44,481 bases of DNA from a virus, in the IMG/VR virus record IMGVR_UViG_3300044987_002232, positions 1 through 44,481 of that record; one strand, given 5' to 3'. The notes beneath the pieces were generated by a model. The model saw only the letters and a program-made list of their open reading frames with translations, was not told the origin of the DNA and searched no databases. A program made the position numbers and the translations under genes. Shown here in pieces: positions 3,680 to 44,481 of the stretch (positions are counted from its first letter, which is position 1; each line of letters opens with the position of its first letter).

Positions 3680-3901
3680 TTATTTGCGCCCGTTTTCCCA
3701 CCACTCGATTAGATGCACCGGGCGAACGCGGTAAGACTTGCCGACCGCCTTGCACTTGATCCTTCCGGTACGCAGATATTTCCGCACCACGAGACGCGGC
3801 GACAGGTCCAGAATGACGCCTATGTCGTTCGGCGTGAGGCCGCGCTCGATCCCCTTCACGAACTCCCGCCTGACTTCAACACCGTTGACGAGTGCGCCCA
3901 T
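3680..3901 (-). CDS. Excisionase/MerR-like helix-turn-helix protein
   Basis: A 73-residue protein. The ATG at 3901 follows GGAGGG, so it is preferred over the longer in-frame start. The sequence LTPNDIGVILDLSPRLVVRKYL, then RIKCKAVGKSYRV and HLIEWWEN, has the layout of the short winged-helix HTH_17/excisionase family: a helix-turn-helix, a wing, then a Trp-containing helix. Candidate roles are an excisionase for the integrase at 5176-6309, or a small regulator. Its place in the early leftward operon controlled by the repressor fits excision on induction. Confidence 0.65.
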   Translation of the reverse strand: MGALVNGVEVRREFVKGIERGLTPNDIGVILDLSPRLVVRKYLRTGRIKCKAVGKSYRVRPVHLIEWWENGRK

Positions 3902-3909
3902 GTTCCCTC

Positions 3910-4164
3910 CTACCGCGTTGCCAGCACCCACACGAACGCCACCACAGCGCCTACCGCAAACGCCGCCATCGTCAGCGCGTCCGCCTTCGTCACCGTCGGC
4001 GGCGCGTAGACCGTGCGACGAAACGTGCTGGCCTGATACTCGCTCATCGGCAGGTGACTCGGCGTGACGCTCCTGGGCGTGCGGCCAGTGCGAATCTCGC
4101 GCATGTCGGCCTGTTCCTGGCGCTCGATGCGTTCGGCGCGTTGTTCGGGGGTTTCAGAGATCAC
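3910..4164 (-). CDS. Small C-terminally anchored membrane protein
   Basis: An 84-residue protein with a charged, Glu/Arg-rich N-terminal half and one hydrophobic C-terminal segment (about residues 63-82, AAFAVGAVVAFVWVLA), so probably a tail-anchored inner-membrane protein. It starts at a GTG that overlaps the upstream stop as GTGA, which implies translational coupling. No family was recognised. Small membrane proteins in early phage operons often act in exclusion or host takeover, but nothing here shows which. Confidence 0.6.
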   Translation of the reverse strand: MISETPEQRAERIERQEQADMREIRTGRTPRSVTPSHLPMSEYQASTFRRTVYAPPTVTKADALTMAAFAVGAVVAFVWVLATR

Positions 4165-4988: not shown

Positions 4989-5192
4989 ATGATTGAATAT
5001 CTTCAGTGGGCTATTGGAACAGTTTTGTTCGTAGGCGGCTTTATGCTCTACGCTTACATCGACACGACAAAAACCAGATTCGAGAAATACGAGCAGAGAG
5101 AGTTCAAACTGATCGACCAAAACGGCGAGCTGATCGCCGAAAACAAGCGACTACGCGAAGCGCTGGAAAATCGGAATGCCCCGCCGAAGTAA
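4989..5192 (+). CDS. Small membrane-anchored coiled-coil protein
   Basis: A 67-residue protein with an N-terminal transmembrane segment (about 5-25, LQWAIGTVLFVGGFMLYAYI) followed by a charged helix with heptad-like Leu/Ile spacing (about 33-62). Topology is probably an inner-membrane anchor with a cytoplasmic coiled coil. It overlaps the integrase start by 17 nt, so both are likely in one lysogeny-side transcript with the repressor. No family was recognised; a lysogenic conversion or superinfection-exclusion role would fit the position but is speculative. Confidence 0.6.
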   Translation: MIEYLQWAIGTVLFVGGFMLYAYIDTTKTRFEKYEQREFKLIDQNGELIAENKRLREALENRNAPPK

Positions 5193-6309
5193 AAACCGAT
5201 ACGGGCGCGGCACGATCAACCCGGTAAAGATCGGGTCCGGGTTCGCCTGTTTCCTGTTCCACGATGGCAAGCGCCACCGCTCGCAGCAGACGACCCTTGA
5301 GGCGGCCCGCGCGTGGATCGACATGACCGAGAGCGCCACCGGGGCCAACCGCCCTCCGTTGACGAGGGTGCAGATGGCGGACGCGGCCAACGCCGTCAGC
5401 ATCATGCCGCCAGGGTTCACGCTCACGGACGCGGCCCGAGTCATGGCGGAACGCTACGGGACCAGCGCCATCACGCCTACGAGCCTCACGGATGCGCTCA
5501 GCCGGTTTGAGGCGGCACGCGCCAAGCGGGTCAAGGCTGTAACCATCAAGGGCTACCGCAGCGCCGTGAAGCGGCTGGCCGTGTTCGCCGGGGGCAACGT
5601 AGCCGACGTGACCGCCGAGCAGGTCGAGGCGTTTCTCGACGACCTCAGCCCGACGACGCGGAACTCCGTGCTGCGGAACCTGTCGGCGTTTTTCGGGTGG
5701 TGCAAGGCGAAGGGGCTCACGCGCTCAGTCGTAACCGATCAGATCGAGAAGGCCCGCACCGTAGAGCCGCCCAAGGGAGTGCTCACGCCGGCAGCCGCCG
5801 AGGCGCTACTCCGCGAGGCCGAGAAATCCGCGCCGCACTTCATCCCGTACTTCGCCCTGGGCCTGTTCGCGGGCATCCGACCGGGCGAGCTGGCCCGCCT
5901 GCTACCAGAGAAGATCAGCTTCATGTTCGTCATGCTGGACGGCGCAGTCACGAAGGCGGCAAGCGCCCGCACCGTCCGCATCCGCCCGAACCTCCGCGCG
6001 TGGCTGGACGCCTACCCGCCCAGGAGCCCCATCGCGCCATTCAACGACCGCAACAGATTCAGGGCCATCGCCCGAATCGTCAAGGCCGCTGGCATCGCGT
6101 GGCCCCCGGATTGCATGCGGCACTCATTCGCCACCTATGCCTATGACGAGACGCACGACGCCGCGCTCGTGGCGTCTGAAATGGGCCACGCCGGAACCGC
6201 CATCTTTTTCAAGCACTACCGCGCCATGTGCCACCCAGGCGACGGGGCGAAGTTCTTTTCCATCATGCCGAAAATAATAAACCCCGCCAGGGTTAATGGC
6301 GGGGTTTAA
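5176..6309 (+). CDS. int: Tyrosine-recombinase integrase
   Basis: A 377-residue site-specific recombinase. The N-terminus (1-45) has the basic arm-binding look. A SAM-like core-binding domain spans about 100-195. The catalytic domain carries R235 (AGIRPGEL), K260, R315 in CMRHSFATY, H338 in EMGHAG and the nucleophile Y348 in KHYRA. The first position of the usual HxxR motif is Asp (D312). It integrates the phage at a tRNA gene, judged from the attP immediately downstream, and follows the repressor and membrane-protein genes on the lysogeny transcript. Confidence 0.93.
   Translation: MPRRSKNRYGRGTINPVKIGSGFACFLFHDGKRHRSQQTTLEAARAWIDMTESATGANRPPLTRVQMADAANAVSIMPPGFTLTDAARVMAERYGTSAITPTSLTDALSRFEAARAKRVKAVTIKGYRSAVKRLAVFAGGNVADVTAEQVEAFLDDLSPTTRNSVLRNLSAFFGWCKAKGLTRSVVTDQIEKARTVEPPKGVLTPAAAEALLREAEKSAPHFIPYFALGLFAGIRPGELARLLPEKISFMFVMLDGAVTKAASARTVRIRPNLRAWLDAYPPRSPIAPFNDRNRFRAIARIVKAAGIAWPPDCMRHSFATYAYDETHDAALVASEMGHAGTAIFFKHYRAMCHPGDGAKFFSIMPKIINPARVNGGV
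6279..6307. terminator. Hairpin at the integrase stop codon
   Basis: Perfect 10-bp stem AAACCCCGCC / GGCGGGGTTT with a 9-nt loop, overlapping the integrase TAA. Leftward it is followed by ATTATTTT, rightward only by AAGTTG. It is probably a terminator, better formed for leftward reading or bidirectional, insulating int from the attP and structural region. Confidence 0.55.
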
Positions 6310-6385
6310 GTTGTCGGCGATATTTTCCGCGTTCAGATCATGGTGCCCTCCGTTCGCTGAATTTGGACTTGAAGGCATCACGGTA

Positions 6386-6403
6386 TTCCAACTTTTTTCC
6401 AAC
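6386..6403 (+). promoter_or_regulatory. Integrase arm-type sites, left pair
   Basis: Two copies of TTCCAAC (6386-6392 and 6397-6403) in the same orientation, 11 bp apart, one helical turn. They lie left of the tRNA-like core and mirror the right pair at 6592-6609. Confidence 0.55.
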
Positions 6404-6442
6404 GTCAACCTTAAACCGTTCGGCGGCAACGGGTGTCAGGAC

Positions 6443-6488
6443 CTTTCTAATCCGACGGTCGCGTGTTCGAGCCACGCCGGGGGTGCCA
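6443..6488 (+). other. attP: attP core: 3' half of a tRNA-Arg(TCT)-like gene
   Basis: The sequence reads as a tRNA from the anticodon loop (TTTCTAA, anticodon TCT) to the 3' end: variable region, T-arm GCGTG-TTCGAGC-CACGC (6461-6477), acceptor strand CGGGGGT (6478-6484), discriminator G and CCA (6486-6488). The 5' half and a matching anticodon stem are absent, so it is not a functional tRNA. It is the identity segment expected of a phage that integrates into a tRNA 3' end. The adjacent integrase supports this. The exact left boundary of the core is uncertain. Confidence 0.8.
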
Positions 6489-6591
6489 TTAAAAACCCCA
6501 TATTTTCAAGGGTTTCAGGCGGGTCCGCCGCGCCACTCCAAAAACAGTAAGGGGCGTTTAGGGGCGTTGAGCGGCTATTTTTGTCGTTTTA

Positions 6592-6609
6592 TTCCAACTC
6601 TATTCCAAT
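6592..6609 (+). promoter_or_regulatory. Integrase arm-type sites, right pair
   Basis: TTCCAAC (6592-6598) and TTCCAAT (6603-6609), same orientation and again 11 bp apart. With the left pair they bracket the core by about 40 and 104 bp, the P/P' arm layout of lambda-type attP sites. Confidence 0.55.
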
Positions 6610-6630
6610 TTATCGGATAGGTGCTATGGT
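6603..6630 (+). promoter_or_regulatory. Possible rightward structural promoter
   Basis: A weak match: TTCCAA (6603-6608), 16-nt spacer, then an extended -10, TGC-TATGGT (6622-6630). It precedes the first virion gene (6652) and overlaps an arm site. The -35 is poor, so this is tentative. The rest of 6310-6651 holds attP and shows no gene. Confidence 0.3.
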
Positions 6631-6651: not shown

Positions 6652-7011
6652 ATGTGCGACCCCATTACATCAACGGTTGGAGTCACCGCGATAGGGGCGG
6701 GCATCAGTTCCATCGACAAGACGCGCCGCGACGCCAATAAGGCCGCTCGCGCCCAGGAGGACGCCGCTCGCGCCGCCCTCGAACAGCAGCAGAAGCAGAC
6801 CGACGCCATCAGCGCCGCCATGCAGCGCCCGACCGTCACCACCGAGGAACCGCTCAAGGCGGCATCCGACCGCGTTGACCAGGCCCGCGCATCCACCGAG
6901 CGCCAGCAGCTTCTCCGCCGTGGCGTTATGTCCACGTTCACCCGCTACCCCACCGCCAGCACCGCCGCGCCGAACCTCGCCGGCAAGGCGTCAACGCTCG
7001 GAGGCCGGTAG
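6652..7011 (+). CDS. Small virion-block protein, first structural gene
   Basis: A 119-residue, Ala/Gln/Arg-rich protein beginning MCDPITSTVGVTAIGAG, a short hydrophobic start followed by a long predicted helix (about 22-65, DKTRRDANKAARAQEDAARA) and a disordered tail. Such proteins sit just before the portal gene in related podoviruses. The opening resembles that of the internal virion protein at 22484, hinting at a shared membrane-active N-terminus. No function was recognised. An SD-like GAGGGA precedes the ATG, and the stop overlaps the portal GTG by one base. Confidence 0.7.
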   Translation: MCDPITSTVGVTAIGAGISSIDKTRRDANKAARAQEDAARAALEQQQKQTDAISAAMQRPTVTTEEPLKAASDRVDQARASTERQQLLRRGVMSTFTRYPTASTAAPNLAGKASTLGGR

Positions 7012-8732
7012 TGCCTAAGTTCTCATTCAAGGCCGACACCGCCGCGCTAAAGACTTGGCTCGAAAAGCGCAAGGCCAGTCTTGAGTCCGCCAGGACGCCA
7101 ATCGAATCCGTTTGGCTGGACGTGCGGAAACATTTCGAGCCCTATCTAGGAAAGTGCCTGCTCGAAGGCGATCCGAACCAACGGAACGCCGAACGCGAGG
7201 ACGAGAAAATCCTGAATACCGAGCCGCGCCTTTTGCTTCACCGCATGGGGGCTGGCCTTCAATCCGGCATCACCAACCAGGCCCGCCAGTGGTTCAAATT
7301 CTCCGTGCTCGACAAGCAGCTCGCTGAAGTGGCGACCGTCCGCGAATGGCTCGACAAGGCGACCGAATCCGTTCAGGCGACCATGAACCGCTCGAACGTC
7401 TACGCCGCGCTCGATCAGATTTACATGCACCTCGGCATGGGGACCGCGTGCGCCATTGCCGTTCCGGACCCCGAGACGCAGATTCACCTCCACATAATTG
7501 ACGAGGGCGCATACTGGATCGCCGAGAATCGCAGGGGCCGGGTCGAAACGCTTCTCCGCCGCATCGACATGACCGTCGGCAACCTAGTCGAAGAGTTCGG
7601 CGAGGGTTGGCTGCCCGACCAGATCAGCGAGCGGGTCAAGGCTGGCCGGCTGGAAGAACGGGTTATCGTCTGGAACCTCGTTTGCAGGAACGAGCCGAAG
7701 CGCTTCCCCGACATCGCCGCCGACCGCCTGTTCGCCTCAGTCTATTGGCTCGACGGCATGACCGACCCGAACAACGGAATAATCGCCATCCGCTCGTTTG
7801 GATACAACCCGATCATCGCGCCGCGCTGGTCCGTGTTCGGGTCCGCCTACGGTGTCGGCACGTGCATCCTGGGGCTGGCCGACGCAAAGCAGTTGCAGGC
7901 GCTCGAACTGGACAAGTTGAAGCTGGTCGCCGCCGAGGTCGATCCCGCCATGGTAGCCCCCGCCAGCATGAAGGGCGAGCCTGTCAACACTGGACCGGGC
8001 GGACTCACCTTTGAGCCGGACCAGGGCCTCGGCGGTCGCCAGAACGGCGGAGGAGTCCGCCGCCTGTTCGAGACGCGCCAGCAGTTGCAGGCCGTGCTGC
8101 TCGCCATCGAGGCCACCGAGAAGCGCCTCGGCAGGACGTTCTATTCTGACCTGTTCAGCATGATGCTCAATTTGAACATGGCCCCCAAGCAAATGACCGC
8201 CCGCGAGGTCAACGAGCTCAGCGCTGAGAAAGTCGCGCTACTCGGCCCCATCCTCACGCGCCTAAACACCGACCTGCTCGACCCGCTCGTGGACGCCGTG
8301 TTCGCGATCTGTTCCGAGAACGGAAGCCTGCCACCCCCGCCGCCGATTTTCGAGGGGGTCACGTTCAAGACCGAATACGTCAGCAGTCTGCACATCGAGC
8401 AGATGAGCGCGACCCGCATGTCCGGCATGTTCAAGCTCGTGGAGTTCGTCGGCGGCATCGCTCAGTTCAAGCCGGACATCATGGACAAGATTGACTTCGA
8501 TCAGATGGCCGATATCGCCGCGCAGTCATTCACCGAGCACGGCGTCGTTCGCGACGACAAGGACGTGACCGCCATCCGCCAGCAACGCGCCCAGACCGAA
8601 CAGCAGGCGCTTCGCGCCGAGCAAATTACCAAGGCCATACCCGCCACCGCCAAGGCCGCCCGCGACCTGTCGCAAGCCCCGCTTGGCACCGGGTCCGCCC
8701 TTGACGCCGTAGCCGCAGGAGCCATGCAGTGA
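7011..8732 (+). CDS. Portal (head-to-tail connector) protein
   Basis: A 573-residue protein of the T7 gp8-like/BPP-1-like connector family (Head-tail_con). Family-like segments are WLDVRKHFEPYLGKCL near the start, LLHRMGAGLQSGITNQARQWFKF, the GMGTACAIAVP strand, and FYSDLFSMMLNLNMAPKQMTAREV in the crown region. It forms the dodecameric ring at the packaging vertex through which the terminase at 34827-36332 loads DNA. Its length is normal for podoviral portals. Translation starts at GTG overlapping the upstream TAG. The next gene overlaps its end. Confidence 0.92.
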   Translation: MPKFSFKADTAALKTWLEKRKASLESARTPIESVWLDVRKHFEPYLGKCLLEGDPNQRNAEREDEKILNTEPRLLLHRMGAGLQSGITNQARQWFKFSVLDKQLAEVATVREWLDKATESVQATMNRSNVYAALDQIYMHLGMGTACAIAVPDPETQIHLHIIDEGAYWIAENRRGRVETLLRRIDMTVGNLVEEFGEGWLPDQISERVKAGRLEERVIVWNLVCRNEPKRFPDIAADRLFASVYWLDGMTDPNNGIIAIRSFGYNPIIAPRWSVFGSAYGVGTCILGLADAKQLQALELDKLKLVAAEVDPAMVAPASMKGEPVNTGPGGLTFEPDQGLGGRQNGGGVRRLFETRQQLQAVLLAIEATEKRLGRTFYSDLFSMMLNLNMAPKQMTAREVNELSAEKVALLGPILTRLNTDLLDPLVDAVFAICSENGSLPPPPPIFEGVTFKTEYVSSLHIEQMSATRMSGMFKLVEFVGGIAQFKPDIMDKIDFDQMADIAAQSFTEHGVVRDDKDVTAIRQQRAQTEQQALRAEQITKAIPATAKAARDLSQAPLGTGSALDAVAAGAMQ

Positions 8733-9860: not shown

Positions 9861-10886
9861 ATGGGCGTCAAAGGCAACACGGTACTGACCTATCGGGACC
9901 TGATGAGCGGGTTGAAGGGCGACAAGACCTTCGATCACGACATCGTGGAACTCATGGTCGAGCAGAATCCCATGCTCGACGACATCGTCATCTCGGAAGC
10001 GAATGACGGCACGAGCAACAAGACCACCATCCGCACCGGGCTCCCCTCGACCACGTGGACGCAGTTCTATCAGGGCGTCCAGGCGAGCAAGGGCTCAAAG
10101 CAGCAGATTCGCAACACGGCTGGCTCGCTCAAGACGAAAATCGAGATCGACGCCGACCTGTTCAACCAGGCCCCCGACAAGTCCGCCCTGCTGCTGGACG
10201 AGGTTTCGGCCCACTCGGACGCCATGATGAACGACATGGCCGACTGCCTCATCTACGGCAAGATCGCCAGCGAGCCGAAGAAGTTCAACGGCCTCATCAA
10301 CTTCTACGACACCCTTGGCGGCGTCACCTCGACCGACGACAAGGAGAGCAAGCACTATGTGTTCTCCGCGAAGTCGGCCACGCAGGCGAGCACCTCGGCA
10401 CTGCGGTCCATCTGGCTCGTCGGGTGGGGTCAGAAGTCCATTCGCGGATTCTACCCTCGCGGCAGCAAGGGCGGACTCAGCAAGGGCGAGTTCAAGAAGG
10501 TGGACGTGACCGACACCGAAGGCGGCACCTATGAGGCCATGCGCCAGTATCTCACCTGGCAGATGGGCCTCGACGTGCGCGACTACCGGTATGCCGGTCG
10601 CCTCGCGAACCTCCAGTCCGACGAAATGTTCGACACGACCGGCGTGCCGGAATACGTCGAGCTGCTGCGCCGGCTCATGTCCCGCGTCCACTCCAACGGC
10701 GTCCGCCAGGTGTGGTACATGGACAAGCTCACGTGGGAAGCGGTCGGCGTGTGGCTGGCCCGCAAGACCATGTCGAACGCCATCCAGTTCCGCGACATCC
10801 AGGAGCGCCCCAGCGAGACGCTGTTCGGCATCCCCGTCCGGATCTGTGACGCCCTGAACTCCAACGAAACGGAAGTCACGGCCTAA
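9861..10886 (+). CDS. Major capsid protein
   Basis: A 341-residue protein of the BPP-1/podoviral major-capsid type, which adopts the HK97 fold. It starts MGVKGNTVLTYRDL after a strong AAAGGAAA ribosome-binding site. Recognisable segments are DIVELMVEQNPMLDDI, GLPSTTWTQFYQGV, the KTKIEIDADL strand and VWYMDKLTWEAVGVWL near the C-terminus. Length and order (portal, Bbp19-like, scaffold, capsid, Bbp16-like) match BPP-1-like phages. Flanking hairpins and the good RBS fit high expression. Confidence 0.9.
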   Translation: MGVKGNTVLTYRDLMSGLKGDKTFDHDIVELMVEQNPMLDDIVISEANDGTSNKTTIRTGLPSTTWTQFYQGVQASKGSKQQIRNTAGSLKTKIEIDADLFNQAPDKSALLLDEVSAHSDAMMNDMADCLIYGKIASEPKKFNGLINFYDTLGGVTSTDDKESKHYVFSAKSATQASTSALRSIWLVGWGQKSIRGFYPRGSKGGLSKGEFKKVDVTDTEGGTYEAMRQYLTWQMGLDVRDYRYAGRLANLQSDEMFDTTGVPEYVELLRRLMSRVHSNGVRQVWYMDKLTWEAVGVWLARKTMSNAIQFRDIQERPSETLFGIPVRICDALNSNETEVTA

Positions 10887-11723: not shown

Positions 11724-13004
11724 ATGTCGCTGCCGCTGACAGTCACCGTCAACACGACCAAGGCCACGCTCACCGCCGACCGCATCCTCGTACTCGGAAA
11801 CGGGTATGTCGTTTCGCTAGTCGGCGCGGCTGGCCTTGAACTCGTGCTGTCAGACTGTCACGGCAACGCCCTCGCGCAGACAGACGCCGGAATCCTCTCG
11901 CTCGCCACGCAGGCGCTCGTCGATGAGTTCGGCGACCATGCCGGATGCGCGTGCCAGAAGCCGTTCCACCTCTACGCCGTTGACAACGGGTCTATCGTCG
12001 CCTCGTCGCAGGTGTTCGTCAAGTGGGCTCCGCTCGACTTCGATGTAGCCGGCGAGTTCGTCCCGTTCACCGGTCCGCCCGGACCACCCGGACCCCAGGG
12101 ACCGGCAGGCCCCGAGGGACCTGAAGGCCCTAGCGGCGGACCCCCTGGACCGACCGGCAACACAGGCCCCACCGGGCCACGCGGACCCGTAGGCCCAGCA
12201 GGGGCAACCGGACCAGCCGGCCCAACCGGCGCGACGGGTGCCACCGGTGCCACCGGACCGACCGGTGCGACGGGACTGACCGGCCCCCAGGGCGCAACCG
12301 GCCCCATCGGGCCGCAGGGTGCCACTGGCCCCGCAGGTCCGACCGGTCCGCAGGGCATTCAGGGCGACCCCGGCGTCAACCTCGTGTGGCGCGGCGAGTG
12401 GGACGCTGAAACGACCTACTCGGCGGACGACCTCGTTTCCTATCTCGGCTCCGCCTACGCGGCAGTCACCCCGAACGTCGATACCGCGCCACTCGGCTCC
12501 GAGGACTGGGAATTGCTCGTCGCCAAGGGCGCACCCGGCGACGCCGGCCCGACCGGCTCCGCAGGGGCTACGGGGCCGCAGGGGGCCACAGGACCGACCG
12601 GGGCGACCGGACCCCAGGGCGAACAGGGGGAGCAGGGACCGACCGGCCCCCAGGGCGTCCAGGGACCGCAGGGCGACACCGGGGCGCAGGGGCCGACCGG
12701 CGCACAGGGCAACATTGGCGAGACGGGCGCAACCGGGCCGCAGGGCGACACCGGACCCGCAGGACCGCAAGGCGACCAGGGGCCACGCGGCTACCCCGGC
12801 GAGCAGGGCGCAACTGGTCCGGCTGGCCCAGCAGGTGCCGCAGGTGCCGCAGGCCCCCAAGGTCCGCAAGGCGAACAGGGTAACGTGAGTTCAATTCAGG
12901 TTGACCCCGCCATCACCATTCCCGCCACGTCCGACCCCATCGGGACAATCATCGAAGCCACGGTCGCTATGATGGAATCACTTCGCGCAAGGGGGCTCAT
13001 ATGA
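11724..13004 (+). CDS. Collagen-like tail fibre with carbohydrate-binding-like insert
   Basis: A 426-residue protein. The N-terminal domain (about 1-112, strand-rich, [19 protein letters not shown]) probably attaches to the virion. Two Gly-X-Y blocks follow (about 113-218 and 271-388), rich in GPT, GPQ and GAT triplets, giving a long trimeric rod. They flank a 50-residue module, [29 protein letters not shown], like the Trp/Tyr carbohydrate-binding modules inserted in phage fibres. A short C-terminal segment ends the protein. It is likely a host-recognition fibre, and the repetitive DNA is prone to copy-number change. It overlaps the next gene as ATGA. Confidence 0.85.
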
Positions 13005-23143: not shown

Positions 23144-25258
23144 ATGCCCGTAGTCCCGAGGAACACGACCAATCAAACCCGCGTAGAGCGGCTTCCAGGC
23201 GTCCGCAGCGTAAGCCCCCAGGGTGCCGAGGGTATCGGGGCGCAGGCGGCAGCCGTGGACCGTCAGGCCGATCTGGCTGGCGGCTACGCTCGTGCCATCG
23301 GAAACCGGGGCGAGTCGTTTCAGAACGTGTTCGCCAACACAGCCGCGTCCGCCATCATGGTAGACCGCGTGCAGCGCATCCGCGAGGCCAAGCAGGTCGA
23401 TGAGATTGAAACGCTTTGGAACTCGCACATGTTCAACACGCTCACCGGGGGCGTGGACCCGGCCACCGGCCAGCGCATTCCCGGCACGCTCGACACGCCG
23501 TTCAACCCGAAGGGCGAGGACGGCACCAAGGGAACCAGCGCCGAAGAGGCTACCACCACCGCGCACGCCGAATGGATGCAGGACGAGAGCGGCCCCCTGC
23601 GTAAACTCGCGCCACGCGCCCAGGAGTCGTTCAAGCAGCGCGTCGCCAACCGGTTTGAGTCGTTCCGGCAGACCGCCCGCGAACGCGACGCGCAGAACAT
23701 CGCCGCCCGCAGCAAGATTATCGACGAAGCTGCATCCGAGTCGAATAAGCGGTTCGTCGCCATGGCAGCCGGCGACATCACCGGGACCAAGTGGTCCGAC
23801 GCCAACGCCATCGGACGCACCCAACACGCCATGCGTATGACCCGGAATATTCAGGTTGATCCCGGAAACAACGACCCCGCAAAGCTCGCCTTCAGAATCC
23901 CCGAGGGCGAGGCGCTGTTCAATCAGAAAATGCGCGAATTCGACGCCGAGTCCGCAAGCCAGCGAGTCGGCACACTTCTCCAAATGGCGGACGCCGAACC
24001 CATCGGCACGCCCGAGAACGACGCCAGGGCCAAGGCGCTGACCGACTACGCCGTCAACTTCGCGCAGGGCTGGCCCAAGGAAGGCGAGCCGATCCTTACG
24101 CCCGACGCCATCGCCAAGGCCAAAGACGCCGCGCAGAAGATCGCAGCGGAACGCACCCGTCGAATCGCCTACCAGCGCGAGGTGAACTTTTCCGAGGCAA
24201 AGACGGTCGCAGCCGCCATCGTCAAAGGCACCGAACGCGACCCGGCCAAGCTCGAAGCCGCGATCCTGAAACTTGAGCCGACGCACCGTGCCGAGTTGAA
24301 GCGGTTCACGCTAGACGCCCGCGCCGCCGAGGACAAGATTCAGTTCGAGAAGTCTTGGAACAGCTACCTGCTGGCCGGCCATGACCGCATGAAGGCAGCG
24401 AACGATGAGGTCGAGAACACTATCGCCGCCATGGTGACGACCGAAGGCCGCACCCACGCGAAGAAAATGGTTCTTGACCATCAGTCCGCGCAGGAGTCCG
24501 CAGCGAAATCCGACCGGGCTGAAGCGAAGGCCGAGCAGCGCGAACGCGAGGAAGCGGAGAAGGAAGCCGCCAGGGCCACCCGCACCGCGTCCAAGGTTGC
24601 GCTCGACAGCGGTATCACGCTCACGACGGACGGCCAGGTCATCGCCATCCCGGAATACGACCAGATCGACCAAGGCTTGTCGCTTCTCAAGTCCGGCGCG
24701 ATCACGCCGGCAGACTTCCAGGAGTTCAAGGCCAATCTCGGCAAGAAGCGCGTGGAGCCGGTTGTCGCAGACCGCGTGCTGAAGCTCATCAGCTCAAAAC
24801 TCGGCATCGAGAACGCCGAAACGCTGTTCGATTACAGCACGACGAAGAACGGGTTTGAACTCGCCACCGTCACGAAGAAGGGCAAGCAGCAGCCCGTCAT
24901 GGACCCGACCGACGAAGCCGCCGTTCTCAAGTGGCAGGACGAAAAGGGCAAGGCCAGGAAAACACGCCTGTCCGCTCAGATCGTCGGCGACCTGCTCAAT
25001 GCCGCCATGGCCTACGAAATGCAGGTAAAGCCGAAGGACACAACCGGCAGGCCGCCCATGTCCCTCGAAGAACACCTGTCGTCCATGCTCGCGCCCGAGA
25101 CGAACGGAGCCGTCCGCGAACTCATGGAGCAGAACGTCCGCGACAACATCGAAGAGAACAGCGGCTTGCTTCGCGATATTCAGGCCATGCTCTCGGAACA
25201 GGAATTCCGGGCCGCCGTCCAGGGACTCGAAAAGGGGAAAGCCAATGCCAACGATTAA
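23144..25258 (+). CDS. Internal virion protein C-like (T7 gp15-like)
   Basis: A 704-residue, almost wholly helical protein rich in Ala, Glu, Lys and Arg. It begins MPVVPRNTTNQTRVERLPGVR with a short leader, then helical repeats (EAKQVDEIETLWNSHMFN, QERVANRFESF-like, EREEAEKEAARATR). Size and position equal gp15, the periplasmic tunnel component of the T7 ejectosome. Its last 14 nt overlap the start of the giant gene, implying coupling. Confidence 0.75.
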   Translation: MPVVPRNTTNQTRVERLPGVRSVSPQGAEGIGAQAAAVDRQADLAGGYARAIGNRGESFQNVFANTAASAIMVDRVQRIREAKQVDEIETLWNSHMFNTLTGGVDPATGQRIPGTLDTPFNPKGEDGTKGTSAEEATTTAHAEWMQDESGPLRKLAPRAQESFKQRVANRFESFRQTARERDAQNIAARSKIIDEAASESNKRFVAMAAGDITGTKWSDANAIGRTQHAMRMTRNIQVDPGNNDPAKLAFRIPEGEALFNQKMREFDAESASQRVGTLLQMADAEPIGTPENDARAKALTDYAVNFAQGWPKEGEPILTPDAIAKAKDAAQKIAAERTRRIAYQREVNFSEAKTVAAAIVKGTERDPAKLEAAILKLEPTHRAELKRFTLDARAAEDKIQFEKSWNSYLLAGHDRMKAANDEVENTIAAMVTTEGRTHAKKMVLDHQSAQESAAKSDRAEAKAEQREREEAEKEAARATRTASKVALDSGITLTTDGQVIAIPEYDQIDQGLSLLKSGAITPADFQEFKANLGKKRVEPVVADRVLKLISSKLGIENAETLFDYSTTKNGFELATVTKKGKQQPVMDPTDEAAVLKWQDEKGKARKTRLSAQIVGDLLNAAMAYEMQVKPKDTTGRPPMSLEEHLSSMLAPETNGAVRELMEQNVRDNIEENSGLLRDIQAMLSEQEFRAAVQGLEKGKANAND

Positions 25259-28200
25259 AGAACGCCGCGAAGGTTACAGGTCATCGGACGCGCAGCGGGT
25301 TCAGGGGGCGCTCAGCGTCCCCGACTTCGCCACCGACGACCAGAAGTTCAGCGCCGCTCGTGATCTTATGCGGACCGTCACAGGCATGGACTCCCAAGAC
25401 GGCTCGATCATCAACAAGGGCAAGCCGCTCGCCGCTGACGAGTTCCTGGGCCGGATGCGGAAGGTCGTATCGGACGGGCTCGGCACGCTCGAAACCGACG
25501 CATCGCGCACATGGAACGCGCTACCCGACGACGAGGAAGCCCGATACACCCACGCAGCCGGCCAGCTCGACTGGTGGAAGCGCAACGTATCCGCCAAGGG
25601 AGCCCGCGCCGTGGACACGTTCAGCACCGTGGACGAGCGAGAATTACCAGAGGACGCCACCCCCGAGGACCGCGAGCTCGTGAAGCGCCACAAGTACGCG
25701 AGCGACTATTTCAAGGCGTCGTCGGTGTCGGAAGGTGCAGCGGTGGACCTGGCCGCCCCCGAGCCGTTTACCCCGGAGCAGGCTCAGCGGTTCACCGTGC
25801 TCAAGGACCGGATCGCCAAGCGCCGCACCATCCGCGAGTACAACGCCGCCATGCAGGCCGAGAACGTGGCACTGCAATACACCCTCATCAAAGACGAGCT
25901 GTCGGAGCCCGCCCGCGAAATCGCCAAGGCGGCGCTGCGGACCAACAAAATGCCGCAGCACATGGTCGAGCAGTTCAGCCGGCTGCCCCTCGTCGAGCAG
26001 CAGTACGTTTCATCGCTCGTCTATGGGGCTAAGCACGCCAGCACGGACGGGGTCATGTTGACCGCTGGAAAGCAGTTCATGAACACGGCCCTTGACATCC
26101 CCGTCAAGGCCAGCCGCGCCCTATTCACCGACAGCGTTAAGCGCCAATTTATGACCGACGGCGAGTTCAACCGCTTCGCACAGACCCGCGCCCTGCTCAT
26201 GGAAGCCCAGGCCGACAAGCTGCCCGAGTTCGGCGGGTTCGGTAGCGCCGTTGTCGGGCTCGCCTCGACGCTGCCCTACATGGGATACGCCTCGATCCCC
26301 TACGCGGGAATCGGGCTCGTCGCCGGGTCAGCAGCCGACGACTTCGAGCGCCGCGTTGCCGCCGAGGGTGGCGACGTGACCAGCCTCGAATTCCGGGCCG
26401 CGAAGATTGCCACGGCTACCGCCTACGCCATGACCGAGCGGCTACAGGCCGACAAGGCGTTTAGACTCCCGTCCGCCATGCAGAAGCGGCAGGCGTTTCT
26501 CGGCTTCTGGCGGTCCGCCTACAAGGTCGCCCAGGTCGGCAAAGACTTTGCGGCTACGACCGGCGCGGAACTCGGCCAGGAGGGCATGCAGGCAGCCATG
26601 GAGGACGGCTTTGTCGCCTACGGGCTGGACCGAAACATCGCCCGCGAGGCTGTTCAAGGCGGGCTTCAGGAGCTCAAGGAAGCCGCAGGCACGATGTTAC
26701 TAACCAGCGCTGTAGGGTCCGCAGGAAAAGCCATCAGGATCAACGCATCGAAGCGGCTCAGCGTCGAAGAAATGATATCCTCGCACCTGCACCGTATCCA
26801 GTTGCGCGAAGCCTACACCGCAGGCGACCGCAAGGGAATCACCGAGAGCCGCGCCGCCATCGGCGAGCTGTTTGAAAAGTGGTATCGGGCAGGGAGCCGC
26901 GACAATGCCGTCGCCGAGTTTAAGCGAATCGGCTTCCACCCGGACGAGGCAGGCCGCATGGCCGACACGTTCAACATCGAATATCGCACCATTATGGAGT
27001 CCGACCAGTTCACGCCCGAGCAAAAACGCGATATCATCGGCGGCGACTCGGACCCGCGCGGACTGGTCCTCAAGCTCATGCCGGACGCCCAGATCGAGGA
27101 GGGCGAGGACGGCGCGTTCTCGTTCTCCCGCGACATGAACGGCACCAGGCAGACGTACAGCGTTCAGTTCGACGGCGGGGGCAAGTTCGACGCCAGCACC
27201 CCGGAAGCAGCCGCCAGCGTCTCGCAGGCGCTCAAGGGCAGGGGCGTTGAGATCACGCCCGAAGAATGGCTTGCCACGCCCGAGGAAAACCGCAAGGCCC
27301 TCATCGACGAGCACGGACTCAGGAAGAACGGATTCTTCTCGCCAGTCGCCCCCGGCGTGACCGAAGGCTCGCTCGGCGTGCTGGCCGGCACCATCCACCT
27401 CGACCGCGCAGCGCACCCGGCGACCCTGTTCCACGAGTATTTCCACGGCTTCGCCCGGATGCTCCGCGACAACGGGGTCATGACCGACGCCGACGTGTCC
27501 AAGGCGGTCGAGGAATTCGGACCCGCCCAGGCCCCCGGCGAGCTATTCAACGAGGAAGCCGCCGCCGACGCGTTCAGGGACTTCGCCACGGCCCGTTCCA
27601 ACCCGAAGCCTGGGAGCGTTCTCGGCCACATCTGGAACGCCCTGGCCGCCCTTGTGAACGGCATATCGCGCTCCAAGAACCGCAAGGCCGCCAGCGAGAA
27701 GGCCACCACGACGCGCGAAGCCATGTTCGAGCAGGTTCTCAGGGGCAATTTCACCGGAATCCCGGTCGCCACCATCCCGACCGCAGCCACGGCCACCACC
27801 CTAAAAACCCCTGCAAAAGCCTCGTTTTCTCAAAATCAACTTGCTACGGTTGCAAGTTCAACTGGAAACCGTTACCAGTTCAAGGCGGGCGATACCGTCA
27901 CCGGAACGCGGGTCAACAAGGCCGGCGAGCGCACCAAGGGGCGCACCGGAACCGTGCTCGACTCCGGTCCGGACGGATACCGCGTGAAGTGGGATAATGG
28001 CACGACCAGCACGCACCCCGAGTCGTTCTTCTTCCAGGAGTCGGCCCCACCCATGCGTCCGACGCTCACAGGCGACGCGGGCGGGGTCAGCTTCGCGCCA
28101 GTGACCGCCAAGCTCGCCGCCGAGGAATCGGCCAAGGTCGCCGCCATCAAGGGCGCACAGGGCCGTTTTGAGGCCACCACGCCGGACGGCAGCATGAAGG

Positions 28201-31200
28201 TGGGCGGGTATTGGGCTGCCATGGACCTCGGCGACATCATCACGAGCGACCGGCCCGGATACGACGCGCGGCTCCAGGGCCGCAACCGCGAAGGCATCGC
28301 GAGCCGTATCCAGATAAACGAGATCGCCAACAACGTGCAGCCGTCCCGCCTGTTCGAGTCTCCCGAGACGGACGGCGGCGCCCCGCTTCTCACGCAGTCC
28401 ATGAACGTGCTGTCGGGGAATGGCCGCGTGCTGGCCCTCCGCCAGGCGGAACGGCTCGGCAAGCTCGACGACTACGACCGATGGGTCCGCGTCATGGCGC
28501 AGGAAATGGGGCTCGACGTGGCCGACATGCGTCGCCCGGTCCTCGTTCGTATCATCGACTCGACGACCGACCAGGCCGAGCTGACCCGCATCAGCGAGCT
28601 CAGCAACCGCCCCCGCATCCTCGCCAGGAGCCCCGCCGAGACAGCCGAGGCCGACGCTGCTGCGATCATCGAAGGCGGCTTGCTGGCCCTCTACGCACCC
28701 GACGCGAACGGCAACATATTCGCCGCCAGCAACCGCGAGTTCCTGGGCGCATTCATCCGCGCCGTGAACGACGACGCCATGATCGACAGCACCGGCAAGC
28801 CGACCGACGAGGCAGGCGACCGGGTGCGCCGCGCCATGCTCGCCATCATCGCCGGACGCGGCCCGGACTCCCGCAACGTCGTTCGCGCCCTCGTGGAGAA
28901 CTCCCGCGCGGTCGGCATGGGTCGCATCGTTGACGGCGTGGCGAAGGCAGCCGGCGAGCTCGTGAACCTCGCCGACGTGAAGCCCGAGTTCTCGATCCTC
29001 GACGAGCTCGCCTTCGCCCTGCGCGAGTTCATGCAGTTCAAACTGGACGGCGCCGTGAACGTCGAACAGTGGATCGGGCAGGCCGACATGCTCCGCCCGC
29101 CGCGCCCCGCGATCATCGACAAGATCATCCGCGAAATGGGGAACCGATCGGGGTCCGGCATCTATGCCATGCTCAAGGACTACACCGACCGCGCCCGCGC
29201 ACTCGACACCAAGACGGGCGACATGTTCGGAGCCGCGCCGACCAGCAAGGAGGCCGTGCTCGATCTGGCGATCAAGGCGACGGCGGAAACGGGCGAGCGG
29301 TTGAGCGTGAGCGCGGAGAACGTGCGGATCACGGAGCCGGATGCAGTCGGAAGCTCGCACGGTCAATATGACTCCATCATCTACGCGAAGGACGGCTCCG
29401 ATGTTGTCGGATACATCGACCTTTCCGAGTACGACGGGACCATGCAAGCGCGAATGATCGAGGTTGAAGAAGAGTACCGCCGCAAGGGAATCGGGACGAA
29501 ACTGACTCAGGCCGCAGTCGATTACGCCAAGGCCAGAGGCGTCAAGTTCAAGCTGTCGAACACCACCGAGGACGGCACCGCGCTTCGCCGCTCACTCAAA
29601 CGCGCCGGGATTATCCGCTACTCCGTCACCGCCACCCAGGACCGCGCCTATATGGCCGCAGCCGAGGCAGGCGACACCGCGACGGCTCAGCGCATGATGG
29701 ACGAGGCCGCGAAGGCGGCGGGGTATAAAACCGCAGGCTTTCACCAGACTTCAAAGACCGCCATGGAGGCAATTTTCCGCGAAGGGTTCAGGCTCGACAA
29801 GGGCCGCGCCCGCCTCAGCGACGAGCAAGTTCCGGACGGATTCTTTTTCAAGCCGTTCGACAACGATATCGGAGTCGGGGCAGGCGACAAAAAGGACCAG
29901 GCCCAGATTCCGGTTTACCTGAAAATGGATAAAACGCTCGGGCTCATTGACCGGCAGGCGTTCATGAACATCCTCATGTTCCTGCCTGAATACAACAGGC
30001 TGGAAGGGGAACGCCGAAGTATTGACGCCAAAGAATTAGCCATCAATGACGCGATGGACAAGAAGCTGGTGGAGATCGCTAAGTCAAACGACAAAGAGGC
30101 TTATGGGAAATTGCTCGATGAAATGAGCGATCAGGTAGACGCGTGGGGCGCAAAGATGAAGGACGCCTCCACGGCTATGCGACGTGTAATAACTGAATGG
30201 ATGAAGGCCAAAGGATACGACAGCCTTGAAATTCTCCGCGACACCGGCAGCTTTGGCCGCACGGTTTCCACCATGGTCGTCCTCGACCCCACCCAAATCA
30301 AATCCGCCGACCCGATCACCCGCGACGACTCGGGCCGCATCATCCCCCTGAGCAAGCGGTTTAACGCCGAGTCGGCGGATATCAGGTATTCCGTGAGTGC
30401 GTCAGAAGCCAAAGAATGGAACCGCTCGCTCAATCTGTACGCATCCGGGGAACTCGACACGTCCAAGCCTATAACGGTGCTCGACGGAACGCCCGTCATC
30501 CTTCAACGGTGCGGAGCGGACAACCTGCCTATCACTATCACCAAAACGGCCCTTGACCACAGCATGAGCGGAAAAACCGGCGACGATCACGCCGTACCGC
30601 TCCGCGAAATGCGAAAGCTGCAGCAGGTGTTGGATGACCCTATCGCCGTGTTCAAATCAAAGAGCGAGCCGGACGCACTGGTCATCTATACGGAAATCCT
30701 TGAGGGTGGACGCAATACAGTTGTCGCTCTACATCTCGACACGCGAAGCGGACGCCACACTGTCAACGCCGTCAGGAGTATTTACGGGAAACCGCTTGGC
30801 GCTGTTGCAGAGTGGATGAAAGACGGGCTTGCGCTATACGTTCACCAGAAAAAAATAAGCGCCCTGTTCCAGTCCATAGGGGTCCAATTCCCCAAGGAGG
30901 GTCCAGGGCGCAAAGGGTATCTCACGGAACAGGAATTCAATATACCCCCGTCATCCGGCGATGTCAATACCCCACCCGCCCCCCGCAACGCCATGGAGGC
31001 CACACGCGGGCGCTACTCGCACGAGTCCAACCTAATCGCCAGCGCCGCCGCACGGCTCATCGCCGGGAAGGACGCGCCGCCCGAGCAATACGACCGGCTC
31101 GCCAAGGCGCTCGGCGTTCAGGCGACCGGCGCGGAGATCGTCACCCGCGCCAAGGCGTTCACCGAAGGCGAGGTTGCCGCCGCCGCCAAGAAGGCGCTCG

Positions 31201-34200
31201 CGTCAAAGGACCCCACGGCGGCCATCACCGGCATATCCAAGGCCGTCGAACTTGAGAAGTTCCGCCGCACGGCGACAGCCGGCGTGAAGAAGGGCGCGGC
31301 GCTTGAGCGGCGGCTCTCGGAACTCGGCAAGAAGGCCGAGGACGCGGGGCTCAAGGCCATGCTTGAACAGGTTCGCGGCGAGAACCTGCAACGGCTCGAA
31401 GTGGACACCGGGGCAGACCTGACCGGGACCATGCTCGAAGTGCTGCCCGAAGTGTTCGCCGAGACGCCCCCGAGCACCGGCGACACCGGGGCAGAACCGG
31501 AACTCATCAACCCCCTCGAATTCGAGCGCGTCGTCACGCAGGAGGAACTCGACGCCCGCGACGAGCGGCTCCGCAACGCCGTGGACATGGTGAAGGCGTG
31601 GAGCGCCTCCGAACGCGCCGCCCGCGAGAAGCGCATCGCCGAACGCGCCGCGAAGGCCGCAGCGGGTGGCCAGGCCGACGAGGACGCCGACGCCGAGCAG
31701 CTCGACGACACCGGCGTCATGGTCATCCCCAAGGCGCTGCTTGAAACGGCTCGCGTCAACCTGACCAGCGCCCGCGAGTTCGCGCACTTCATCCGGCTCT
31801 GGATCGGGCAGCACGCGATTGACCGCTCGGCTGGCCGCATCACGGCTCAAACCGTCTGGAAAGACCCGGAGAGCGTCGAGCTCTACCGCAAGACCGTGGT
31901 TCAGCAGCTCACCGATATGGCGGACCGGCTCGTGGACCCCATCGACCGCGCCCTCCCGACCATCAAGACCATCATCGGCGACATCGTGGCCGGCATGAGC
32001 CCCACGCAGATCGAGGGCATGAGCGCCTCGGCCCTGCGCCTCATCCAGAAGAACGCCATCCGGCAGAGCCAGGGCAAGCTGACCCGCGAACTCGCCACCA
32101 ACATCGTGAAACTCACGAAGGACGGCAAGGCGTTTGACACGATGAAGGAGGACATAAAGCGGAAGGTGACGGCGGAGGTCGAACGAGTCGCCCGAAAGCT
32201 CGCCAAGATCGTCTTTTACACCGACCGCAAGACCGCTGCCGAGATCGAGCGCCTCGACGCCGAGATCGAAGCCCGCGAACAGGCGTATGCCAACGTGACA
32301 GAACCGGTCGAATCCGACGCGCAATATCACGCCCTGTTCCTTGAGCGCCAGATGGTTGAACGATACGGCGGCCTGCGCTACCGTATGCCCGCCGACATCC
32401 TCAAGGCCAAGGCCGAGATCGAGGATTGGCTCACAGGCGAGAAACAGAAGCTCGTGGACCGAAACGTCCAGCGCGAGCAGGAAGCCGACCGCCTCTCCAA
32501 GGCCCTCACGGCAGGCACCGAACGCGACCCGGAACGCCACGGCAGGCCCGAGCGCGAGACGTTCGCCCAGGGCATGAAGGACGAGCTTATCGCCACTGTC
32601 CGCCAGCGGTTGCAGAACCTCGTGAAGTTCTCGACCGGCACCACGCGCACCGAGGCAAACGAGGCCGTCGAGTTCATCGCGCTCACCATGGGGCGTGGCT
32701 CGGAACTCTACGCGGCCACCATGGACCGCTACCGCAAAGAATCGGACGCCATCCTTGACGACGTGTCCCAGGGCGATCTGTCCGCCTACGTGAAGCACCT
32801 CGAAGAGCCGCTCCCGGCAGACGTGGCCCGCGCCGTGGCATCGAAGGAGCAGGGACTCGCCGAGCGCATGACCTACGGGCAGGCAATCCAGCTTTACGCC
32901 TCGATCACCCAGGGCAGCTACACCGAGAGCGTCCTCACCAACGGACGGCAGGAGCACGCCCGTATCCTCGCGGGAGCACTCAGCGCGGCAGACTTGCGGC
33001 TCGTGGAGAAGCTCCGCAAGCTCTACGCGGCCCGCCGCCTTGAGCTCAGCGAGGTAGTTCAGGAGGTTACAGGCACCCCCGTATGGTCGCCCGACCCGCT
33101 CTATATGCCCGTCAAGATGTTCCTTGGCGCAAAGGGCGGGTTCGCCACGGAGGCCCGCGCCTGGTCCCCGCTGGCCAAGGCGCTCACGCCGCGCGTGAAG
33201 AACCGCCGCGACTTCGACGAGACGTTCGACATCATGTCTATGCTCGCCATGTCGAACGAGCACAGCGCCCGCGCCATCGCGTTCGGAACGCGCGGCATCC
33301 GGCTCCGGGGTGTCCTGGGCCGCCGCGCCGTGCAGAACGCCATTATCCGCTACCATGGCCGCGAGCAGCTTTCCCGCCTGCTGGAACAGGTCAACGACCA
33401 CCTCATCGGGACCGAGCCGCAGCGTGACGCGGGGTCTAAGATGATCAAGATGGCGATGCAGTTGACCACCTTCACGGCCCTGTCGGGCAACCTGCTAAGC
33501 GCCATGAAACAGCTTGGCTCTATCCCGGCCTGGGGGCTCGTGCTCAAAGGCGGACTCGGCGAGGTAGCGGGTCATGTCCGCAACTTCGACCGGGCGACCG
33601 CCGCAGAGCTGGCCGACAGCGACGGCTTCCGCGCCCGGTACGGCGGCGGCATGATGCGCGAAATATCGGAGATCATCGCAGACGGTCGCGGAAACGTGCT
33701 CAAACGCGTCTACATGGCCGGTATGCAGCCCTTACAGGGTGCCGACATGGTGGCGTCACTGCTGGTCGGAACCGGGCTCTATAAGACCAGGCGCGACGCC
33801 TTGGTCAGACAGGGCATGGACCTCATGGATGCGTCCGCGCAGGCCAAGACCGAGACATTCAACCTCATCGAGGAATGCCAGCAGTCTAGCCGCCCCGAGA
33901 ACATGCCCCGCGCCATGCGCCGCGACGGCATCGCCTGGCGGTTGCTGATGCAGTTCGCCAGCTCGCCCATGCTCCAACTCAGCCACGAAATGCAGGCCGC
34001 CCGCGACTGGCGGGCCACGGTGGACCCGGACGGCACCATGAACCTCGCCCAGGTCATCGCCAAGAGCGCCAGCAACGCCGCGCAGGGGATCGACGACGGA
34101 CGCGCAAAGCTCGTGCGGTCAATCCTCATCAACCACGCGCTTACACCGGTCATCATGCAGAGCATGAGCAGCCTTTTCAACGCCATCCTTGGCGACGACG

Positions 34201-34656: not shown

Positions 34657-34830
34657 TTAACTATCCCCGTTATTGAGCTTGTCCGCCTCAAGACCATCCG
34701 GCGTATTCCAGCAGCGCCAACACAGGTGCAGTCCCTCGCCCTTGCACGTCCGACAAAGCCACTCGCCGCAGTCAAGACACTGCGCGACCGTGCCGCAGGA
34801 ACCGCACCGCTGACAGGTGCGCGGGCTCAA
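34657..34830 (-). CDS. Small zinc-ribbon-like Cys-rich protein
   Basis: About 57 residues if translation begins at the TTG overlapping the terminase TGA (TTGA); a GTG at 34842 would add four. There is no suitable ATG. It has regularly spaced cysteine pairs (TCQRCGSCG, CLDCG, LCRTCKGEG, LCWRCW), enough for two zinc sites as in B-box/RING-like or ribbon folds. It is last in the leftward operon, directly after the terminase. The high Cys density makes it likely real, but the start is uncertain. Confidence 0.5.
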   Translation of the reverse strand: MSPRTCQRCGSCGTVAQCLDCGEWLCRTCKGEGLHLCWRCWNTPDGLEADKLNNGDS

Positions 34831-36332
34831 AACGGCTTCCACGCATTGTTCGTCTTGGCGACCTCGCGCACGCTGTCCGGCTTCGGGGCGACAGGGAAGC
34901 GGGCATTTGCCAACACGGTAGGATGCGCGATGTTCGCGAGGCAATCGAGCATATCGTCATGCCGGCAGACGGGATAGGTAGCGAATTCGTAATGCTGAAA
35001 ATCGTGCGTCCAGTCGTAGGTTTCGCCAAGCACCGACTGTTTCAGAATCCGGTTCGGCATCCATATCCGGGCCGACTCAAACAGCGGGACCAGCCACCCT
35101 ATGCGGTCCTCCTTCGGAACCGACTGCGCCAGCTCAATTATCGGGAAATGCCAACCCACGTCGTTCTGCTTCTCTTTGACGTGCTCCACATCGGACGCCA
35201 GGCCGACCTGCTCCCAGAAGGTCATGTTCGGAGCCCACGCCTCTACCAGGTCGAACAGGCACCGCGTCCGCTCGGCCAGGTTAATGCGGTCGCGCACCGC
35301 GTCCAGGACGTAATAGTTCTTGTCCCGACCCATGCCGTAGACGATGAAAGACGAATAGTCGTTTGTCTTTTTCTTCTTGTTCGCCGAATCGACGAGGATA
35401 TAGACATTCTGCTTTGAGCGTTCCGGCATGCGCTCAAGGGTATGCAGCCACCCGTCGCGGAACGTCCTGGTCCCCGCCGAAATGGGATTCTGTAGCATCT
35501 GCGCCGAAAACGTCCGTTCGCCCATCATACGCCGCTTCTCGCCGAGCTCAGCCTCGGGCATCAGGACCGACTTGCCGTCAGCCCCGTAGCAGGTCCGGCG
35601 ACGCTCCTTGAGCGCCTTCCGCTCGATCATCACGGAATAGGTGTCGTCCGGGTGGTAGCGCGTCCCGCAGTACCATTCCCGCCCGCCCTCAGACGTGCCG
35701 AGCGCAAGGGACAGCTCCCACGCCTTCGTCGTTTTCTCGATCACCTCGGGCGACGTGACGGAATCCTGGGTCACGATGTCGTCGTAAATCCGCAGCGCGT
35801 AGTGAGCTCCCACCGGCTGCCCATCGACCAGGCCGCCAGCCTGGACGGTCGGCTCCTTCGGGTTCGCCGTCCGCTTCACCACAAGGCCCGACTGCTTCGA
35901 CCAATTCCGCTGCGGCGGCTTGTCCCACAGGATATCCGGAAACAGCGCCACCAGCGCCGCCCGCTCAAGCTCCACCCGGATCTGATCGACGAACTTCTCC
36001 GCCAGGGGCCGGACGTTCGACAGAATGCCTATCGTGATGTTCGGGTCGCGCAGTATCTCCTGCACCGATCCAGCCAACGTGATCACCGTGGACTTGTAAT
36101 GAAACCGGCTCCACAGGTCCAGGAACCCGACCGGCTCCCGCTCGACCTCCCGGCACCGTTCATAAATCCACGGATGCAGCGCGTCGGCCCGCCCCATTAC
36201 GCAGGTCAACAGGAAGAACCGGTCATGCCGGCACATCCAACGCAGCTCATCCACGTCCGAACGGTCCAGAACAGCGCGATATTCCGCCTTCGCCTCGCCG
36301 AATGTCATGGCCTGTAGGGTCGCCTCGTCCAT
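34827..36332 (-). CDS. terL: Terminase large subunit (DNA-packaging ATPase/nuclease)
   Basis: A 501-residue packaging motor. The ATPase domain has a deviant Walker A SRFHYKST (75-82), as in several podoviral terminases, and Walker B ALRIYDDI (D184/D185). The RNase H-fold nuclease has ILVDSAN (D315), an FWEQ Glu (about 374) and RHDDMLD (D459/D460) as metal ligands. It docks on the portal encoded at 7011. It follows the small subunit by 3 nt and is transcribed leftward with the replication genes, opposite to the structural block. Confidence 0.92.
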   Translation of the reverse strand: MDEATLQAMTFGEAKAEYRAVLDRSDVDELRWMCRHDRFFLLTCVMGRADALHPWIYERCREVEREPVGFLDLWSRFHYKSTVITLAGSVQEILRDPNITIGILSNVRPLAEKFVDQIRVELERAALVALFPDILWDKPPQRNWSKQSGLVVKRTANPKEPTVQAGGLVDGQPVGAHYALRIYDDIVTQDSVTSPEVIEKTTKAWELSLALGTSEGGREWYCGTRYHPDDTYSVMIERKALKERRRTCYGADGKSVLMPEAELGEKRRMMGERTFSAQMLQNPISAGTRTFRDGWLHTLERMPERSKQNVYILVDSANKKKKTNDYSSFIVYGMGRDKNYYVLDAVRDRINLAERTRCLFDLVEAWAPNMTFWEQVGLASDVEHVKEKQNDVGWHFPIIELAQSVPKEDRIGWLVPLFESARIWMPNRILKQSVLGETYDWTHDFQHYEFATYPVCRHDDMLDCLANIAHPTVLANARFPVAPKPDSVREVAKTNNAWKPF

Positions 36333-44193: not shown

Positions 44194-44481
44194 TTATGCA
44201 ACCTTAAATTCGTGTTTTTCGTTCAGGCGATATTTCACACCAGCCTTAACATCGTTTTCGCCAACATAGGCGACTGCCATCCGGTAGCGGTTGTTTTCGT
44301 AGTCATAATATTTGATGCACAGCAAACCGCTTTTGCCCGCCGTGGCCGTGCCCTCATCGCCCGCCGTGGCCGTGCCCTCATCGCCCGCCGTGGCCGTGCC
44401 CTTGAAGCCCGCCGTGGCCGTGCCCTTGAAGCCCGCCGTGGCCGTGCCCTCATCGCCCGCCGTGGCCGTGCCCTTGAAGCC
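44194..44481 (-). CDS. GTATAG-repeat phage protein, C-terminal part (continues from 1)
   Basis: The final 95 residues and TAA stop (44194-44196) of the gene starting at 504. After the octapeptide array comes a conserved C-terminal cap: SGLLCIKYYDYENNRYR, AVAYVGENDVKAGVKYRLN and a short charged end. The cap contains two or three strands and resembles the C-terminal domain seen in homologous phage proteins. The stop lies 3 bases before the ParB-like ATG. Confidence 0.85.
   Translation of the reverse strand, partial: GFKGTATAGDEGTATAGFKGTATAGFKGTATAGDEGTATAGDEGTATAGKSGLLCIKYYDYENNRYRMAVAYVGENDVKAGVKYRLNEKHEFKVA
44338..44481. repeat. 24-bp tandem repeat, right end
   Basis: Six exact 24-bp units of the same array as at 1-160. 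Order of variable parts: tcatc, tcatc, ttgaa, ttgaa, tcatc, ttgaa. No suffix of this end equals a prefix of the left end in whole units, so the two parts appear distinct and not a duplicated overlap. Confidence 0.95.

Follow-up and report, generated by a model that had tools for sequence, protein, structure and literature searches.

The attP sites of the mycobacteriophages L5 and Giles, as described in PMC3203893 from the primary work that it cites, carry integrase arm boxes which occur as directly oriented pairs on both sides of the common core, and arm sequences are reported to differ between related integrases (PMC3203893). Integration into tRNA genes forms the basis of Islander, which works from anticodon-loop tDNA sites and displaced 3' tDNA fragments and reports 2083 class A islands (PMC4383910). 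Given the islands of the one account (PMC4383910) and the L5/Giles arm pairs of the other (PMC3203893), the tRNA site described below, with its L5-like paired arms, is of a kind already known. What is added here is a prediction of the host class, a set of relatives in which arm geometry is near-fixed while the boxes change, and an attP/attB pair that can be tested.

The locus lies in a 44,481-nucleotide stretch of viral DNA (IMG/VR virus record IMGVR_UViG_3300044987_002232, positions 1 to 44,481), referred to as the window. Its segment 6386-6609 is very probably the attP of a temperate epsilon15/BPP-1-like podovirus which targets a host tRNA-Arg(TCT) gene, with Kiritimatiellia as the likeliest source of the host. 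The core (6444..6488, + strand) consists of the 3' half of a tRNA-Arg(TCT), from tRNA position 32 to the CCA, and includes the anticodon loop (TTTCTAA, 6444-6450) with the anticodon TCT at 6446-6448. The left arm twin (6386..6403, + strand) comprises TTCCAAC at 6386-6392 and again at 6397-6403, 11 bp apart and at -58/-47 from the first anticodon-loop base, while the right arm twin (6592..6609, + strand) comprises TTCCAAC at 6592-6598 and TTCCAAT at 6603-6609, likewise 11 bp apart and beginning at +148 from the loop. The preliminary description of this DNA had proposed two direct 11-bp pairs of TTCCAAY boxes beside a tRNA half, and both pairs were borne out at 6386/6397 and 6592/6603, all on the + strand, the core lying 40 bp from the left pair and 103 bp from the right one, in agreement with it. 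It was also right about the tRNA-Arg(TCT) 3' half, but had begun it one base too far to the left, at 6443, where the phage has C and the host tRNAs have A; identity with the host starts at 6444, and the phage letters immediately to its left end in ...GTCAGGACC. ARAGORN called no full tRNA anywhere in the window, as is expected of an element that holds only half of one, and an Rfam scan returned a sub-threshold match only.

Single boxes carry little weight, since TTCCAAY occurs 14 times in the whole window against 8.25 expected, which is not significant. The 11-bp twin, on the other hand, has just two occurrences in the whole window, one on either side of the core, and appears in 0 of 100 shuffles. 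The site thus has repeated boxes on both sides of its core, as is required of the arm sites in an attP used by a phage tyrosine recombinase. Direct-orientation arm pairs on both sides of the core are shared with L5 and Giles; in contrast, the box sequence and the host phylum differ, the window has four boxes only where L5 has additional sites, and no mycobacteriophage was present among the tblastn matches of the window integrase.

The integrase gene (5176..6309, + strand) encodes a tyrosine integrase of 377 aa with a Phage_int_SAM_4 core-binding domain (PF13495, E=1.4e-6) and a Phage_integrase catalytic domain (PF00589, E=1e-5; at 25.9 bits this match fell under the 27.1 cut-off in one scan and was above it in the genome search), and it matched the PHROG integrase family phrog_1 (E=4e-28). 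The residues R235, K260, R315, H338 and Y348 are present, so that an integrase with the catalytic residues is encoded beside the site, and they are invariant across 10 aligned integrase homologs. An aspartate (D312) stands in the place of the first HxxR histidine in 10/10 of the aligned integrases. The family profile matches the solved structures of the lambda and HP1 integrases in their core-binding and/or catalytic domains; these matches leave the N-terminal arm-binding region uncovered, and the family differs in that the first H of HxxR is D in all ten members. A hairpin over the int stop codon (6279..6308, + strand; AACCCCGCC..GGCGGGGTT, read directly) is probably the int terminator.

Two regulatory genes were found in the vicinity. 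The HTH_3 phage repressor (4502..4972, + strand; Pfam HTH_3, E=8e-12; PHROG transcriptional regulator/repressor) is consistent with lysogeny. The gene at 3680..3931 on the - strand encodes an 83-aa HTH_17 protein (Pfam HTH_17, E=3.7e-7) without an NCBIfam match, and by its position and fold class it is a candidate excisionase or directionality factor. Its presence nearby raises the question of whether the twins bind excisionase instead of integrase and so serve direction control and not the synaptic complex, the more so as recombination directionality factors often bind direct repeats. Excisionase sites, however, usually lie on one arm. Matching twins on both arms, as here, resemble the putative integrase arm sites of L5 and Giles (PMC3203893), and we regard the excisionase reading as quite improbable.

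Relatives of the integrase were sought in 288 genomes of the class and then in two orders, and were found to share 36-50% identity with it, mostly over the full length. At 10 of the 11 loci read, the sequence directly after int is the 3' half of a tRNA and begins with the anticodon loop; the eleventh (L031, in G186) has an intact tRNA-Leu there instead. The displaced halves belong to Thr(TGT) in G252 (contig C201), G340 and G040, to Thr(CGT) in G160, G052, G131 and G219, to Met(CAT) in G194 and a Met(CAT)-like tRNA with a degraded T-arm in G252 (contig C25), and to Arg(CCT) in G328. Their anticodons were read by eye, and those of the partnered Thr halves match the ARAGORN call on the intact copy.

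Intact partner tRNAs were located on the same contig in G131 and G040 and on another contig in G052, G160, G252 and G219, most of these pairs sitting on separate contigs of a metagenome-assembled genome (MAG). In G131 a single contig carries int and both ends, the tRNA copies being 23,174 bp apart. Identity between intact and displaced copies starts at the first loop base, with 0 extra bases, in G052, G160, G252 and G040, and likewise between the window and the host tRNAs L010-L012 considered below, and it starts 2 bases earlier in G131 and G219. In G052 and G160 the pairing is supported by a right twin, while the pairs in G252 and G219 are less certain, as no matching right twin accompanies their tRNA-Thr copies, and these intact copies may not adjoin the element. 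The tRNA-Thr(TGT) pair of G252 (L064/L085) has an identity that runs past the CCA to 66 bases, longer than in other pairs.

The class A layout of Islander (intact tRNA, int, 3' fragment) was accordingly recognised on a single contig in G131 and G040 and across contigs in G052 and G160. The window resembles it in having an attP with a 3' tDNA fragment from the anticodon loop, such that integration would restore the tRNA and displace the 3' fragment. It differs in that Kiritimatiellia are concerned, int lies away from the restored tRNA, and the target is Arg, Thr or Met among related integrases.

The arms of the relatives were compared with coordinate 0 set at the first anticodon-loop base, each twin in the interval -62 to -54 being scored out of 7. 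Left 11-bp twins with a score of 6 or 7 near -58 were obtained in the window and in 7 of the 10 relatives (G131, G052, both contigs of G252, G194, G340 and G040); the twin in G160 was weak, at 4 of 7, and none was found in G219 or G328. Per-locus shuffle fractions for the eight positives ranged from 0 to 0.012, and are somewhat optimistic because the -58 twins had been spotted by eye before the interval was fixed. The better control is the contrast with other spacings: at 8, 9, 10, 12, 13 and 14, no locus reached 6 in the same interval. Right twins in the same orientation as the left were found at +161 in G131 and G052, +159 in G160 and +160 in G040, and within each of these four elements their box is the same as, or near-identical to, the left box. 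The right twin of the window, at +148, is 11-13 bp nearer than in the relatives, or about one helical turn. TTCCAAY itself is not conserved, the relatives using TGCCAAC, TGACAAC, TGTCAAC, AGCCAAC, TGGGAAC or TAGGCAC.

We somewhat favour the view that, in this Kiritimatiellia integrase lineage, the 11-bp arm geometry (about -58/+160) stayed nearly fixed while the box sequence (TTCCAAC to TAGGCAC) and the target tRNA (Arg, Thr, Met) changed. If true, the relatives would form a natural series from which the code that the N-terminal domain uses for arm recognition could be read, fixed spacing with drifting boxes being in effect a natural experiment on how the arm-binding domain chooses its sites.

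These comparisons also bear on whether the tRNA piece could be a dead remnant and the TTCCAAY twins boxes with another role, for example in repressor binding or replication. Integration of this phage itself was not seen, and TTCCAAY repeats occur without a recognised att site in three other phages, as would be in keeping with such a remnant. Against this, int, the two twins and the core between them are arranged as in the integrated relatives, with the left offset unchanged, and the boxes match on both sides within each element; we consider a dead remnant highly improbable. The three phages had come up as double-twin matches and were rejected as att sites, L004 and L005 being TTCCAACC-rich with no integrase in the part read and L013 a long TTCCAA-rich array. 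In a further phage, L003, which is AT-rich and looks like a Bacteroidota phage by eye, 11-bp TTCCAAC twins lie on both sides of a short region (2086-2286) adjoining an integrase-like gene, in the opposite orientation relative to int.

The preliminary description had called the site an arm/core/arm integrase substrate, and this is supported by the relatives in the class, which keep int, the displaced tRNA half and the left 11-bp twins at the same offset. It had further predicted a host tRNA-Arg(TCT) whose 3' half equals 6443-6488. The exact 44-base core had no match in 84,980 species searched with one genome per species. A relaxed pattern, in which the variable positions were freed, was run on the GTDB species genomes and matched only 3 MAGs, labelled Kiritimatiellae, Lentisphaerae and PVC-group bacterium; the three belong to one class, G002 and G003 being grouped in the class of G001. 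ARAGORN called an intact tRNA-Arg(TCT) in each of L010, L011 and L012, and the core agrees with it at 44/45 bases in L011 and L012 and 43/45 in L010, with all differences in the T-loop. No closer match was found in the order of G001 (162 genomes). The prediction thus holds in part: a near-identical attB is available over 6444-6488, at 44/45 bases, but an exact equal is absent among sequenced genomes.

The description had also suggested a search for prophage junctions at this tRNA gene. None of this phage was seen, but displaced 3' halves of the same tRNA with unrelated sequence upstream, left by other elements, were found in three genomes (G204, G217 and G002), which indicates that the tRNA-Arg(TCT) gene serves as an integration site in the class. 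In G204 the displaced half lies 3,239 bp after the intact copy in the same orientation. The insert that separates them (L066 4114-7397, 3.2 kb) encodes a 494-aa recombinase-like protein of a differing type, named from its sequence, and carries CATACAA twins of its own, likewise 11 bp apart, at -67/-56 and +199/+210; here a further integrase type shares both the arm spacing and the tRNA with the phage. A distant tyrosine recombinase beside the tRNA-Arg(TCT) in L011 was rejected as junction evidence, the contig having no displaced half.

From the core, the twins and the integrase as they stand in the window, together with their conservation and the tRNA/fragment pairs in relatives, we infer the binding, crossover point, reaction and host of this phage along the following lines. 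The N-terminal domain of the integrase would bind the 11-bp TTCCAAY twins on both arms while its catalytic part holds the core, and the core would recombine with a host tRNA-Arg(TCT) gene at its anticodon loop. Strand exchange is expected within the 7-base anticodon loop, in keeping with established knowledge of tyrosine integrases, and the crossover is placed there because in most pairs this is where the block of identity starts. As the phage carries the tRNA 3' half from position 32 to the CCA, integration would rebuild an intact tRNA at one end and leave the displaced 3' half beside int at the far end. No attL or attR of this phage was found in the genomes examined. The window offers a predicted pair of integrase and attP that is complete and has a defined target.

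The portal or head-tail connector gene (7011..8732, + strand; PF12236, E=9e-109) is the first large structural gene to the right of attP, and is followed by a major capsid gene of the GP7 type (9861..10886, + strand; PF20911, E=3.5e-79). The matches of its portal, capsid and repressor identify the phage as an epsilon15/BPP-1-like temperate podovirus. It shares portal homologs and a GP7-type capsid with BPP-1 (Bordetella) and epsilon15 (Salmonella), but the portal is only 31-34% identical to those of epsilon15/BPP-1-like phages, and the integrases of BPP-1 and epsilon15 were absent from the tblastn matches. The terminase-like large protein (34827..36332, - strand), called a terminase by sequence reading, matched L059 at 42% (tblastn, E=3e-114).

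The element on contig C80 of G160 is a prophage, its int-side end being the displaced tRNA-Thr(CGT) half. It has in common with the window the integrase, the repressor, the portal and the next gene, and the terminase-like protein and its neighbour. This kinship, with the portal at 49% against 34% for the best annotated phage, is the strongest evidence on the host, this class being the only one searched with these proteins. Most likely, judging from these sequences, the host is a member of the class Kiritimatiellia.

A true tRNA attP whose host lies outside Kiritimatiellia, in an unsampled lineage with the exact tRNA-Arg(TCT) 3' half, has to be weighed against this. The absence of the exact core from about 85,000 species genomes speaks for such a host, as does the finding that the nearest annotated-phage integrases, those of Akkermansia phages, are only 27-29% identical. 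Yet the relaxed tRNA pattern matched only three MAGs of one class, and within the class, where the protein searches covered it and two of its orders, integrases reach up to 50% and the portal 49% against at most 34% for the portal in annotated phages. An outside host is thus unlikely, and Kiritimatiellia remains our preferred assignment, linking an environmental phage to a little-studied class. The integrases of the three Akkermansia phages (27-29%) were dropped as candidates, since int has no TTCCAAY twin in its vicinity and the sequence read downstream of it shows no evident tRNA half. A search of phage DNA at blastn sensitivity returned no match, and none of the open-licence papers searched was found to combine Kiritimatiellota, prophage and integrase.

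Some further features of the window were noted. The same 24-bp tandem repeat is present at both ends of the record (1-159 and 44335-44481), suggesting that the contig is circular and was cut within a repeat array. A single ORF of 3086 aa occupies 25245-34505 and may encode a giant protein of the polyvalent or internal virion kind, and the 426-aa protein encoded at 11724-13004 contains long collagen-like GPT/GPQ repeats.
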